DNA of 64,000 nt from Burkholderia ubonensis (GTDB taxonomy: Bacteria; Pseudomonadota; Gammaproteobacteria; Burkholderiales; Burkholderiaceae), in NCBI RefSeq assembly GCF_001718695.1, contig NZ_CP013420.1, positions 2,542,001-2,606,000 of the forward strand, written 5' to 3'. The notes beneath the pieces were generated by a model that saw only the letters and a list, made by a program, of their open reading frames with translations, was not told the DNA's origin and did not search any database. The translations under genes and the position numbers were made by a program. Below are positions 24,264 through 29,277 of the stretch, piece by piece (the first letter of the stretch is position 1; every line of letters starts with the position of its first letter).

Positions 24264-24872
24264 TCAGCTGCGCTTGACGCGGTAGACAGCAAGACTACCA
24301 CGCCAGTTCGCTCCCCATCGAATCGGCTGCCCTTCGTGCAGCACGACGCGGTCGAGGATCGTGACGCCGACCTCGGGCGCGAGCGCCTCGAAATCCTTGA
24401 TCGTCAGCACCCGGACGTTCGGCGTGTTGTGCCACTGGTAAGGCAGCGACTTCGACACCGGCATCCGGCCGCGCAGCACCGACAGCCGGTGCGCCCAGTA
24501 GCCGAAATTCGGGAACGACACGATGCATTCGCGGCCGACGCGCGCGGTCTCGCGCAGGATCGCGGCGGTCTGGTGGATCGTCTGCAGCGTCTGCGACAGG
24601 ATCGCGATATCGAAGCTGTGATCCTCGAACAGGCGCAGCCCGTCCTCGAGGTTCTGCTGGATCACGTTGATGCCGTTCTTCGCGCTCGCGAGCACGCCCG
24701 CGTCGTTCAGCTCGATGCCGTAGCCGGTGACGTCCAGTTCCTCCATCAGCAGCGCCAGCAGCGAGCCGTCGCCGCAGCCGAGATCGAGCACGGTCGAGCG
24801 CGGCTCGACCCAGCGGGCGATCGTGCGGAAGTCCGCGCGCGCGGACAGGGAATTCAGCGCTTGCTGGTTCAT
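24264..24872 (-). CDS. metW: Methionine biosynthesis protein MetW
   Basis: A 202-residue SAM-binding methyltransferase-fold protein ([43 protein letters not shown]). MetW is the partner of MetX-type homoserine acyltransferases in bacteria that use the MetX/MetW pair. Start ATG overlaps the metX stop (ATGA), indicating coupled translation. Confidence 0.95.
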
Positions 24873-26014
24873 GTACCCACCTCGTTGGCGATTCGTTCGT
24901 AATACGCGCGGATCAGGTTGTGATAGCGCGCGTCGTCGAGCAGGAACGCGTCGTGGCCGTGCGGCGCGTCGATCTCCGCGTAGCTCACGGTGCGCTTGTT
25001 GTCGAGCAGCGCCTTCACGATCTCGCGCGAGCGCGCGGGCGCGAAGCGCCAGTCGGTCGAGAAGCTCGCGATCAGGTATTTCGCCTTGGTGTGCGCGAGC
25101 GCAGCCGTCAGGTTGCCGTCGAACGCCTTCGCCGGATCGAAGTAGTCGAGCGCGCGCGTGATCAGCAGGTAGGTGTTCGCGTCGAAGTAGTCGGCGAACT
25201 TGTCGCCCTGGTAGCGCAGGTACGACTCGACCTCGAACTCGACGTCGAAGCTGAAGTTGTACGCGTCGAGCGCGCCGTCGGCGCGGCGCAGCGCGCGGCC
25301 GAATTTCTCGGCCATGTCGTCGTCCGAAAGATACGTGATGTGGCCGATCATCCGCGCGACGCGCAGGCCGCGCTTCGGCTTCACGCCGTGCGCGTAGTAG
25401 TCGCCGCCGTGGAAATCCGGGTCGGACAGGATCGCCGAGCGCGCGACCTCGTTGAACGCGATGTTCTGCGCGGACAGCTTCGGCGTCGACGCGATGTCGA
25501 TGCAGTGCGCGACGCGCTCCGGGTACATCAGGCTCCACGCGAGCGCCTGCATCCCGCCGAGGCTGCCGCCCATCACCGCGGCGAAGCGCTCGATGCCGAA
25601 CGCGTCGGCGACGCGCGCCTGCGCGTGCACCCAGTCCTCGACGGTGACGACCGGAAAGCGCGCACCGTACGGCTGGCCGGTCGACGGATCGATGCTCATC
25701 GGGCCGGTCGAGCCGAAGCACGAGCCGAGGTTGTTCACGCCGATCACGAAGAAGCGGTTGGTGTCGAGCGGCTTGCCCGGCCCCACCATGTTGTCCCACC
25801 AGCCGGTGCTGCGCGGGTCGTCCGCGTAGACGCCGGCGACGTGATGCGACGCGTTGAGCGCGTGGCAGACGAGCACCGCGTTCGAGCGCGCGGCGTTGAG
25901 CTCGCCGTACGTCTCGACGACGAGCTGATAGTTGCCGATCACGCTGCCGCTTTGCAAGCGCAGCGGTTCGGCGAAGTGCATGGTCTGTGGAGCGACGATG
26001 CCGATCGATTCCAT
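24869..26014 (-). CDS. metX: Homoserine O-acyltransferase MetX
   Basis: Alpha/beta-hydrolase enzyme acylating homoserine (succinyl or acetyl donor), the first committed step of methionine synthesis. The 381 residues include [11 protein letters not shown], oxyanion/binding loop [12 protein letters not shown], nucleophile Ser in [12 protein letters not shown], Asp in STDWRFAP and His in [14 protein letters not shown] 26014 ([10 protein letters not shown]) is chosen for homology and the Shine-Dalgarno-like AAGGCGG five bases upstream. Preceded by a SAM-II-like leader. Confidence 0.95.
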
Positions 26015-26089
26015 TCGTTCCGCCTTATGCCATATGACTGGGCGGCTAAACGGTGTCGGCGAGGCGCGGAGTCGGAGATGCGCGGCTGA
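26015..26089 (-). promoter_or_regulatory. metX expression platform with mutually exclusive helices
   Basis: Downstream of the aptamer, TTTAGCCGC (26050-26042) is a perfect 9-bp complement of aptamer-core GCGGCTAAA (26105-26097). Its CCGCC (26045-26041) can alternatively pair with GGCGG (26024-26020) inside the Shine-Dalgarno sequence. Only one helix can form at a time. The arrangement suggests that ligand binding releases CCGCC to mask the ribosome site. Confidence 0.5.
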
Positions 26090-26190
26090 CGACCTCTTTA
26101 GCCGCATTTGTAGTGAACCGCCGGGACGAAGACGAATCAAGGCCCCGGCCGGTTCGCGCGCCCGCAATCGAGTCAGCAAATCGGCGCGCT
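26086..26190 (-). promoter_or_regulatory. SAM-II-like riboswitch aptamer upstream of metX
   Basis: P1 stem GCGCGCC (26189-26183) with GGCGCGC (26162-26156) encloses a 20-nt loop starting GATTTG and ending ATTGCG. An extra hairpin (GAACCG...CGGTTC) is followed by an A-rich stretch and GCTAAAG (26102-26096). Loop G-C of TTGC can pair with GC of GCTAAA, and loop GAC (26174-26172) with GTC (26093-26091), as in the SAM-II pseudoknot. Consensus and pairings are from memory of the SAM-II family. Confidence 0.7.
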
Positions 26191-26191
26191 T

Positions 26192-26230
26192 CCGACCTGC
26201 CGCCAAGGGGCGGCAGGTCGGCAAAGTATA
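26192..26230 (-). promoter_or_regulatory. Possible metX promoter and 5' hairpin
   Basis: On the minus strand TATACT (26230-26225) is a good -10, but no clear -35 is seen. A perfect 13-bp hairpin CCGACCTGCCGCC/GGCGGCAGGTCGG (26192-26204 with 26209-26221) begins about where transcription would start, immediately 5' of the aptamer. Confidence 0.4.
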
Positions 26231-26238
26231 GCGGAATT

Positions 26239-26267
26239 CGCCGGCCCACGGATTGCGTGGGCCGGCG
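26239..26267. terminator. Hairpin between autotransporter gene and metX
   Basis: Perfect 12-bp stem CGCCGGCCCACG/CGTGGGCCGGCG with 5-nt loop, 15 bases after the autotransporter stop (minus strand). No T tract follows, so it may be a weak terminator or an mRNA end-stabilising hairpin. Confidence 0.5.
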
Positions 26268-26281
26268 ACGGCCTGCTCGGC

Positions 26282-29277
26282 TCACCAGCGATACTTCGCC
26301 GACAGTTGCCCGCGAACCAGCGCGTAGTCGGACAGATTGCCTTCGACGCCGACACTCGCCGAGACCGAGAAGCGCCGGCTCAACTGGCCCGTCGCGCCGG
26401 CCCGGAACGCCGCGCGGTCGCGCGGCACGCTGAACGAGAACGCGTTGCGCTCGAGCGTCAGCGACCGCGAGCTGGGGCCGTGCCACCAGCTCGCCTCGAT
26501 GAACGGCCGCAGCTCGCGGCCGGACGGCATCGCAGTCACGCCGTGCACGCGCACGCCGACGCGGGTCAGCACGTCGGTCGAGCCCTGCCCGTCGAGGCGG
26601 CTGCCCGGTGCGTCGTGCGCGGCCGCGTGATAGTCGGACACGACGAGTTGTGCCTCGGGCTCGACGAAGAACCGCGTATCGCCGCGCTCATAGAACGGAA
26701 TCGAATAGCCCGTCTCGACCGATCCCGTCACGGTGCGCGAGCGGTACGAATCGCCGGTCAGGCTGCCGCCGACGCTGTTCGCATAGGCGCCGTACATGAA
26801 CCACGCATCGGCGTACGGGCCGGACAGGATGTCGCGGCTGCCGTACCACGTGCCGTACACGCCGACGTTGTAGCCGGACACGCTGCCGCGCGCGGTCGCG
26901 TCCATCGTCCGGCGCTCGAGGGCGTTCCATAGCGGGCGGGTCGACCAGCTCGTCTGGCTGCCGTACATGCCCATCGCGCCGACGCGGACGCTGCCGCCGC
27001 GGCCGTCGTCGAAACGGAACAGGTCGGCGCCCGCGTGGATCAGGCGGCCGTTGCCCGACACGCTGCGCGCGCCGCCGGACATCGACGTGAACTGGCCTTC
27101 GGCGCGCAGCCAAACGGCGCCGTCGAGCGGACCGGACGCAGAGTCGGCGGTGCGCAGCGTGCGATCCTCGCGCTGATGCAGGCTGTGGATCGCCATCCAC
27201 GACGCCGCATCCGCATTCGCGAGATAGGCGTCGGGCTCCGGAGCGGTCGCGTGCGCAGGTGGTACGGCTTCGGGTTCGATCGGCGCGGCGGGGGTCACCG
27301 GGGCCGGCGGTTGCGATGGTGGCGGCGGTTGCTGCGGCTCGGGTTCCGGCTGCGCTTGGGGCTGCGCCGCGGATACGAGATACCAGTCTTCCGTGCGGCC
27401 GCCGTGCCCGCCGCGCGCGAGCATGTAGTCGTAGCCGCCGGCCGACAGCGTGCCGAAACCTTGACGGTAGCCGTCCGACGCCGCGTCGAGCGCGAATGCC
27501 GAGGCTGCCGTCGTGCCGCCGTTGCGCGTTTCGACGATCGGATGCCGATCGTCGTTGGCGCGCCGTTGCCGCTGGCGTGCTTGACGATGACGCCCGTGTT
27601 GCCCGATGCGTGGCCGCCGTCGATCACGAGCTTGTCGGTGGGCGACGCGTCGTCGCGCAACGTCGTATGGATCAGCAGCTTGCCGTTGTGCGCCGCATAG
27701 TCGCCCGTCGCGACGAGCGTACGCGGTGTCGCCAATGCGCGGGCGGTCGGCTCTGCGAACGCGATCGCCGAGTCGTTCAGCGCGACGGAGCCGACCGACG
27801 AATCCGCGGTGACGGTCCAGCGGCTGTCCGAGTCGAGCGACAGCGTGCGCACCGCATCGGTCGCGCCGGTCCACGTGGACGCGTTCGACAGCGCGACGTC
27901 CGTCAATGCCGGCGTCGCGCTGCCGTCGTCGGTCGGAAGGTTCACGATGTCGCCCTCCGCCTGCGAGCCCGTATCGAGCGTCAGCCGCACGGGCGCATCG
28001 TATTGCGCATGGACGGCCAGCAGCGTGCCGTCGCCGCCGGTCGCGCGCGCGCCGTTGCGCAGCGCGATGCTGCCGCCGGCCGCGTCGAGCGCGCCGTATC
28101 GGTCGCTGACGAGCGAGCCGCCATCGACGTTCAGCGCGCCGCCGTAGACGCTGGCCGCATAAGCGCCGTCGCCGCGCGTGCGTGCGTCGCTGCGCAACAG
28201 GTCGATTCGGCCGCCGGTGCTGGCGTGGAGCGCGACGGCGCCGTCGCCGTACGTGTCGACGCTCATGTCGGTGGCGGTGACGACGGAGCCGCTGTCGGAC
28301 GACATCGCACCGGGCGAGCCTGCGCCGCGCGTGTCGATGCCGCCGCGCGTCATCGCGATCTTGCCGCCGCGCCGCGCAATCGCGCCGGCCGCGCGCGCGC
28401 CGGTGGTCGTCACGCGCGTATCGGTCGCGTCGATGACGGGCGTGTCGGCGTATTCCTTCGATGCGTACAGCCCGTGCGCGCTGGTGCCTTCCGTGATCAC
28501 GCGCGTGCGTGCGAGTGCGACGTCGCCCGCGCGCATATCGACGCCGAGCGAGCCTACGCCGCTGGCGTGCAGATACGAGTCGCTGAACGCGACCGTGGAC
28601 GTGCTCGGCAGGAACAGCACCGGCGCGTAGTTGCCGTCCGTCCGGATCTCGGTGCGATCGAGCGTCGCGTGTGCGCCGTCGTAGCTGATCGACAGGCCGG
28701 AGGCGTACAGGCCGCTGGTCCGGATCGACGTAGTGGCGACATCGATCGTGCCGCCCGGCGTCCCGATCACGTTGATGCCGGCGCTTTCCTTGCCGCGCGT
28801 GACGATTGCGCTGTCCGCGATGCGGAACTCGCCGTTCGCGCCGTAGAGGTATGCACCGTGCGCGTAGTCGCCGTCGGTATCGATCGACACGCGTTCCGCC
28901 GACGCGCTCGCGCCGCCGCGCACGTCGATGCCGACGCTGTTGCCGCCGCGCGTCCGGATTTCGGTATCGCGCAGTTCCACGCGCGAGCCCGCTCCCGATG
29001 CGGCGGCGCCGGCGGCGACGGGGCCCGTCGAAAACGCGCGGGTTTTGGCCGTCGTCGTCAGATGTCCGCCGTTGATCGCGGACAGCACCGCGCGGCCGAC
29101 CTGGGTCGTCGAATAGTCGCCCGGCGCGACCTCGAGCGCGACGCCGTTGGCCTGCTGCGGGCCGCCGGCGATTTGCGCACTGGACGCCCACGGCATCACG
29201 GCACCGGCGATCAGCGCCGAATGGGCGAGACGGCGGCCGGTGCGGGTTCGAGAAAGTGGAAAGCTGCGATGGTTCAC
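26282..29277 (-). pseudogene. Frameshifted autotransporter (pertactin-type passenger, beta-barrel)
   Basis: Two frames together encode one type V secreted protein of about 998 residues. The upstream frame starts at GTG 29277 (preceded by AGAGGTGAA) with a signal peptide (AHSALIAGAVMPWASSAQIA) and a repetitive beta-helix passenger. It leaves frame near 27540; the other frame continues with VETRNGGTTAASAFALDAASDGYRQ, YMLARGGHGGRTEDWYLVSA, a Pro-rich linker and a 12-strand-type barrel ending SAKYRW. The 2996-nt span is not divisible by three: one base lost (or two gained) would restore the gene. Could be a true pseudogene or a sequence error. Confidence 0.85.

Follow-up and report, generated by a model that had tools for sequence, protein, structure and literature searches.

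The leader of the metX-metW genes was examined in a 64,000-nucleotide (nt) stretch of the Burkholderia ubonensis genome (contig NZ_CP013420.1, positions 2,542,001 to 2,606,000; referred to here as the window). Comparison of related leaders and predicted folds make it probable that this leader is an OFF switch of the SAM-II riboswitch class, responsive to S-adenosylmethionine (SAM), with an indirect translational platform of the antisequestor/sequestor type. Mutually exclusive helices on one shared strand, one of them masking the Shine-Dalgarno (SD) sequence, were found by prediction together with conservation. The parts of the switch all lie on the minus strand.

26093-26105, minus strand: aptamer core strand GCGGCTAAAGAGG (SAM-II consensus, GCUAAAgAGG)
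26041-26050, minus strand: relay strand TTTAGCCGCC, partner of the core or, via CCGCC (26045-26041), mask of the ribosome site
26042-26105, minus strand: ON hairpin (antisequestor), 26105-26097 with 26050-26042, the predicted minimum-energy fold when the core is free
26094-26080 with 26067-26052, minus strand: inward extension of the ON hairpin through GGT/ACC, GTC/GAC, GC/GC and GCGC/GCGC
26082-26087, minus strand: local competitor AGCCGC, complement of GCGGCT in the core
26020-26026, minus strand: metX SD sequence AAGGCGG, 5 bases 5′ of the ATG at 26014

In the proposed mechanism, the core GCGGCUAAA(GAGGUC) would pair with the relay strand in the absence of SAM, forming a long antisequestor hairpin that would keep CCGCC off the SD sequence and allow metX to be translated. 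Binding of SAM would lock the core in the aptamer pseudoknot and release the relay strand, whose end, CCGCC, could then pair with GGCGG of the ribosome site as a sequestor and stop translation. Because the relay strand is made about 45 nt later than the core, SAM could presumably bind before the competing hairpin exists. We infer that SAM is the ligand, that the direction is OFF and that translation is the level of control. A passage in Korniakova 2022 (PMC8814607) describes regulation by the 5′ untranslated regions of metX and metZ in B. thailandensis as 'confirmed (unpublished data)' and mentions use of the metX construct with 0.05 mM methionine.

An earlier reading made from the letters of the window (the sequence-only reading) had put three strands, GCGGCTAAA, TTTAGCCGC and GGCGG, at 26105-26097, 26050-26042 and 26024-26020 of the minus strand, and all three were found there. 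It had set CCGCC inside TTTAGCCGC, which holds for most of the motif, but the final C (26041) lies one base beyond the 9-mer. The 9-bp core helix that it described is present but makes up the outer end of a longer hairpin predicted between 26105-26080 and 26067-26042, and the core complement AGCCGC (26087-26082), which it had not listed, could make a local hairpin. A complement of at least 9 nt to the 15-nt core region arose in 13 of 20,000 spacer shuffles, and one that also overlapped the SD pairing arose in 4 of 20,000; yet 31 of 2,556 ordinary window positions also had a 9-mer complement. The joint core and SD score of the window leader (L081) was equalled in 4 of 2,000 shuffles. For the 11 Burkholderia-type leaders L081, L016, L005, L138, L139, L143, L009, L199, L227, L212 and L175, the respective counts were 4, 29, 64, 16, 29, 107, 75, 133, 24, 1 and 7 of 2,000. 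Counts of 7, 368 and 106 of 2,000 were obtained for L216, L214 and L232, respectively, in which the test had picked unintended helices, the SD hairpin of L216 being too close to the ATG.

Relatives were collected by metX searches of 80 named loci, 65 genomes of the genus (the partial genome G025 being excluded) and 285 of 299 genomes of the family, the last of which yielded 80 further leaders. A total of 237 records were read, some being repeats of one genome, and 211 of them held the aptamer pattern that was applied; the 26 without it were named loci, including Polynucleobacter and several Oxalobacteraceae. The sequence-only reading would have been refuted by a complementarity that is not conserved in close relatives, and this was not the case: a strand facing the core was present in all 70 distinct leaders of the first set, as TTTAGCCGC in 51, TTTAGCTGC in 10, TCTAGCCGC in 7 and TCTGGCCGC and CTTAGCCGC in 1 each. 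The C-to-T change in the relay strand (10 of 70 leaders) retains both helices through G-U pairs. In a set of 125 distinct leaders, which includes L072 of another lineage, the core helix and SD helix overlapped by at least 3 relay bases in 116. An alignment of 49 leaders contained three conserved blocks (core to GCGC, GCGC to relay strand, and SD) separated by spacers that varied in length and letters. As the TTTAG of the relay strand lies away from the ribosome site, masking of the SD sequence alone does not explain its conservation. The clearest matched change is that of the genus of L214, L216 and L232, where the core GGCTAAAGCG stands opposite a 10-bp complement, CGCTTTAGCC, and the SD hairpins are CCACC/GGTGG or CCCC/GGGG.

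Independent rules applied to 158 distinct loci assigned 116 to the relay only, 22 to the terminator only, 1 (L029) to both, 5 to a direct class with the ATG immediately 3′ of the core and 14 to none. Leaders of Pandoraea and of one further genus resemble the relay by eye, with other letters, but failed the shuffle test and are, therefore, not claimed as the same relay. The strands AAAGAGGTCG, CGACCCCTTT and GGAAAGGG of Pandoraea gave counts of 172 (L218), 252 (L235) and 364 (L219) of 2,000 shuffles, and joint pairing was absent from Pandoraea L217, L236 and L027 and from the genus of L210, L213 and L228 (AAGCGGTC with GACCCTT and AAGGG). No joint core and SD pairing was detected in L233 in this test. 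That locus (whole locus, minus strand) carries CTTTAGCCTTTGTTTGGCTTTT, in which a relay-like strand leads into a short hairpin that resembles a terminator, and is perhaps intermediate between the relay and terminator platforms. Two nearly identical metX leaders were observed 4.0 kb apart in L286 (G022:C1:3660900-3665300); in that Burkholderia genome, the start region of metX is duplicated.

Covariation was assessed over the 49 aligned leaders. The ON hairpin was paired in 97.5% of cells, a level reached by 4 of 500 shuffles, and the SD helix in 98.0%, reached by 2 of 500. Changes that keep pairing included U-A to U-G in the ON hairpin (7 of the 46 rows with letters at that pair) and C-G to U-G in the SD helix (11 of 49 rows). 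Changes on both sides filled two cells of the SD helix, G-C to A-U in L214 and L232 (2 of 500 shuffles), while further pair types in this helix were no better than shuffles. The local hairpin between the core and AGCCGC was paired in 96.6% of cells, every measure lying within the range of shuffles. Compensatory changes exist and are few, and the covariation is slight; these counts are small, and kinship among leaders inflates tests of this kind.

Folding of the window RNA was predicted, in the main, from the core through 30 nt into metX. With the core free, the RNA formed the long hairpin with all nine core pairs (−38.9 kcal/mol), and the state with the local hairpin (core with AGCCGC) was worse by 3.2 kcal/mol (−35.7 kcal/mol). 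When the core was barred from pairing, the CCGCC/GGCGG helix formed. The two-state test was extended to 114 leaders having the relay strand and the SD pattern, selected from 126 distinct leaders (the 125 plus L214). The core helix formed in the free fold of 112, the SD helix formed in 105 with the core barred and both states were predicted in 103, in agreement with the two exclusive states that had been proposed for the window. The SD helix appeared in the free fold of 2 leaders. As the chief ligand-free partner of the core, the local GCGGCT/AGCCGC hairpin was not favoured: it occurred in 0 of the 114 free folds and its covariation did not exceed shuffles, although one stretch does fold with it. 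Coding sequence was included in 54 of the 114 folded leaders, of which 47 passed. Accessibility of the SD sequence, a probability measure with a weaker outcome, was computed from one base into the core to the ATG, as opposed to the full core used for the 114 leaders. Blocking the core lowered the mean unpaired fraction by 0.170, compared with 0.038 in 1,240 shuffles, and the difference exceeded 0.1 in 75 of 124 leaders versus 221 of 1,240 shuffles. The energetics of the two predicted states are supportive, not decisive.

The remaining parts assigned to the aptamer are listed here.

26156-26189, minus strand: SAM-II-like hairpin P1, GCGCGCC (26189-26183) with GGCGCGC (26162-26156), from the sequence and the R1 model described below
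26182-26177 and 26168-26164, minus strand: contents of the P1 loop, GATTTG and ATTGC
26115-26155, minus strand: extra hairpin between P1 and the core, GAACCG with CGGTTC, then CCGGG with CCCGG
26086-26094, minus strand: candidate 3′ strand of P2, GGTC or GTCAG, pairing possible with CTGAC (26176-26172)

A scan of the window with Rfam at family cut-offs found no riboswitch. The SAM-II family, RF00521, gave only 17.0 bits on a displaced stretch (26197-26133, reported with E up to 10) and no match on 26155-26010; homology was therefore tested with a purpose-built model. In other relatives, the RF00521 score was graded downward (50.9, 50.4, 39.7, 38.2, 33.6, 31.1 and 23.9 bits), with Achromobacter L070, Bordetella L073, Advenella L077 and Lautropia L071 passing the cut-off (38.2 to 50.9 bits; 4 of 20 loci scanned). 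These four leaders have the same aptamer pieces without an insert, in contrast to Burkholderia, where a hairpin is inserted between P1 and the core; this insertion is probably why RF00521 misses the window leader. The model, R1, is a covariance model built from 11 aligned insert-less beta-proteobacterial leaders with P1 as its sole helix. Of its training leaders, 5 had been scanned with RF00521, four being above the cut-off and one at 33.6 bits. GATTTG, TTGC and GCTAAA are invariant across the 11 training sequences, and the window leader has these SAM-II hallmarks, namely, the P1 hairpin with GAUUUG, UUGC and GCUAAA.

R1 matched the window leader (26190-26088) with 34.9 bits (E, 4.7e-9), the top match of its genome. 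Because the 3′ side of P1 falls beyond the insert in this model, the score rests on two sequence blocks. Matches were also obtained in Caballeronia L006, Trinickia L014, Cupriavidus L028, Ralstonia L029 and L035 and Collimonas L043 and, in two pieces, in Pandoraea L025; all 65 Burkholderia genomes had a match at E up to 0.01. Inserts formed a stem of at least 5 pairs in 146 of 156 distinct cases from all lineages with the aptamer pattern, and these were 61 different stems. P2 can be drawn as CTGAC with GTCAG (26090-26086) or as GAC with the GTC of GGTC. The SAM-II-like leaders sit 5′ of methionine genes, metX-metW and, as a second copy, metZ. A third R1 match of about 21 to 23 bits occurs in many Burkholderia genomes; in the three inspected (L275 to L277), it looks like chance. 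By sequence homology, the window leader is related to SAM-II, as the sequence-only reading had proposed, and it is named SAM-II-like rather than an RF00521 hit.

The second R1 match in the same genome (24.3 bits; E, 8.7e-4) lies 5′ of metZ (L239, G000:C3:653646-653711). Inspection by eye indicated that this leader continues into a terminator-like hairpin with a U-run, an arrangement also read in eight further Burkholderia loci (L278 to L285), and that its core CAGCTAAAGCG could form 8 of 11 pairs with CGCTGATGCTG in the 5′ arm of the hairpin. The terminator (metZ) and relay (metX) versions of one switch seem to share a genome. Rfam family RF02424 ('Burkholderia sRNA Bp2_287', sRNA denoting small RNA) matches the metZ leader in antisense with 195.1 bits (L239:1468-1640, minus strand). 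Judging by this match, RF02424 appears to model the antisense strand of a SAM-II-like metZ leader and to have been built on the wrong strand; its source paper (PMC3521395) had raised the suspicion of a cis element for methionine genes. No intrinsic terminator was found before metX on the minus strand in 25960-26320. The 23 of 158 loci meeting the terminator rule belonged to Cupriavidus, Ralstonia, Oxalobacteraceae and other lineages, and none was of the Burkholderia type.

A number of results weigh against an indirect translational SAM-II switch. The predicted fold of the window RNA depends on the stretch chosen: when 26165-26000 (166 nt) is folded, the local hairpin forms and the ribosome site is masked, whereas the longer 26190-25985 gives the 9-bp core helix. 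Eleven of the 114 leaders fail the two-state test, from which 12 leaders without the relay or SD pattern had been excluded (six Pandoraea, L210, L213, L228, L233, L216 and the unrelated L072). The SD sequence is only partly freed in the model, with a mean unpaired fraction of 0.349 in the free state against 0.179 in the blocked state, and the difference falls below −0.03 in 8 of 124 leaders. Individual leaders are not all unusual, the 11 Burkholderia-type representatives ranging from 1 to 133 of 2,000 shuffles, and the TCTAG form of the relay strand places a C-A mismatch against the core in 17 of 125 distinct leaders. Both-side changes occur at one pair in the ON hairpin, as high in 50 of 500 shuffles, and at one pair in the SD helix, as reached in 59 of 500; the core is nearly invariant and therefore its helix cannot covary fully. 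The window leader does not attain the RF00521 gathering score of 36 bits, and the P2 pairing was unsupported by permutation (334 of 2,000). The observation made in the sequence-only reading is confirmed, and its interpretation is supported by comparison and by modelled energetics.

Three other explanations were considered, each being improbable. If SAM-II acted directly on a distant start, a ribosome would use the core GAGG (26096-26093) as a standby site, 79 nt from the ATG, SAM would hide this GAGG and the downstream helices would be secondary. Such a mechanism has been reported for S. meliloti metA with a start 74 nt downstream (PMC9373788), and GAGG is retained in 46 of the 49 aligned leaders; metX, however, has a well-placed SD sequence of its own, conserved in that alignment, and direct control leaves the relay strand, including TTTAG, without a reason for its conservation. 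We give transcription attenuation the same low probability. Here the CCGCC/GGCGG hairpin or a later structure would end transcription, a mechanism put forward for the metXZ element by Leyn 2014, or Rho could act after a block of translation. This explanation draws on the terminators described in a passage of Leyn 2014 (PMC4239095) as 'consistently present' after the metXZ element, on the loci of other lineages that meet the terminator rule and on the terminator seen by eye at the metZ copy of the same genome. Against its intrinsic form stand the lack of a terminator-like site on the minus strand in 25960-26320 and the distribution of the rules, in that 116 of the 117 relay-rule loci do not meet the terminator rule, the remaining one (L029) being named Ralstonia.

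Slightly less probable still is conservation of the relay strand for another cause, such as a protein or small-RNA site, with both complementarities as by-products. The nearly unvarying core and the slight covariation would be in keeping with this, but most changes in the relay strand preserve pairing, the genus of L214, L216 and L232 made matching changes to its core, relay and SD and both states were predicted in most of the selected leaders (103 of 114). The best reading remains one in which terminator-type SAM-II has a translational sibling in the metX-metW leader.

The genes and the putative promoter element of the locus are as follows.

24869-26014, minus strand: metX, homoserine O-succinyltransferase type (NF047916; 691.6 bits against a cut-off of 560)
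24264-24872, minus strand: metW, overlapping the metX stop (TIGR02081; 266 bits against a cut-off of 189.5)
26225-26230, minus strand: −10-like TATACT, 36 nt 5′ of the aptamer (TA[TC][AG]CT pattern)

The two genes presumably form a single operon, and the transcript may start near 26218. Of 84 distinct upstream segments, 78 contained the TA[TC][AG]CT pattern at some point within 75 nt 5′ of the aptamer; a strict scan for sigma-70 promoters was negative. Close to where the transcript probably begins, a perfect 13-bp hairpin, CCGACCTGCCGCC/GGCGGCAGGTCGG, was observed (window 26221-26192, minus strand); it is possibly a 5′ stabiliser. Stems of at least 7 pairs occurred within 75 nt 5′ of the aptamer in 52 of the 84 distinct segments, as 33 different stems at varying positions. 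In the upstream part of the Variovorax metX locus, a manganese riboswitch was detected (RF00080, 77.3 bits, L076:619-801), which is unrelated to the metX relay.

Leyn 2014 (PMC4239095) reported a metXZ element that precedes metX or metZ in beta-proteobacteria, 8 of 8 Burkholderia among them, and treated it as separate from SAM_alpha, with one copy per genome. From its place and lineage, the Burkholderia metX leader would be this element, which suggests that the metXZ element is SAM-II-like and gives it a probable ligand. The two agree in genes and bacteria, and a pseudoknot with an alternative conformation was proposed there; they differ from each other, as published, in the SAM-II homology, the absence of a detected terminator and the SD relay at Burkholderia metX. 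We put at even odds the broader proposal that metXZ is SAM-II and that Burkholderia-type bacteria turned a terminator platform into SD masking while keeping the antiterminator strand, so that metZ would be controlled by termination and metX by translation. If this is true, riboswitch platforms would evolve through swapping what the relay strand masks. The leader also offers a natural series of direct, terminator and relay platforms around one aptamer and one gene for the study of platform change. In 120 sampled genomes of the family, RF00521 was above its cut-off in none, with one sub-cut-off match under stricter filters, and the inserted hairpin is the likely reason.

SAM-II is a model small riboswitch that serves as an example of direct occlusion and is filed under it in a 2024 review (PMC10907184); judging by the present leader, SAM-II riboswitches may also work through an indirect translational platform. 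Among the papers examined in searches of the open PMC literature, we found none assigning the Burkholderia metX leader to SAM-II or describing an indirect translational SAM-II. The window leader shares with RF00521 SAM-II (Corbino 2005; Sargasso Sea metX) the P1 hairpin with its GAUUUG loop, UUGC, GCUAAAgAGG and a place before metX. It differs in the extra hairpin between P1 and the core, in its score of 17 of 36 bits and in a ribosome site about 73 nt downstream that would be masked via a relay, not in the pseudoknot. The textbook SAM-II that the sequence-only reading set in contrast is one among several SAM-II designs. Many SAM-II leaders carry terminators, according to passages in Corbino 2005 and in Barrick and Breaker 2007. 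The logic of a strand facing the core is shared with the terminator-platform SAM-II (S. meliloti metZ, PMC9373788; Ralstonia, Cupriavidus and Collimonas in this analysis), as in Collimonas L043, where the core GGCTAAA faces a TTTAGCC that continues into the terminator stem; the hairpin of that platform ends in a U-tract, whereas the Burkholderia hairpin ends in the metX ribosome site. The start codon lies some 75 nt downstream, as in the 'translation at a distance' described for S. meliloti metA in the same paper, in which the SD sequence of the aptamer is reported to be functional, unlike Burkholderia metX with its separate SD sequence. The switching logic is that of the antisequestor/sequestor OFF riboswitches of other classes (PMC2258182), whose aptamers differ.
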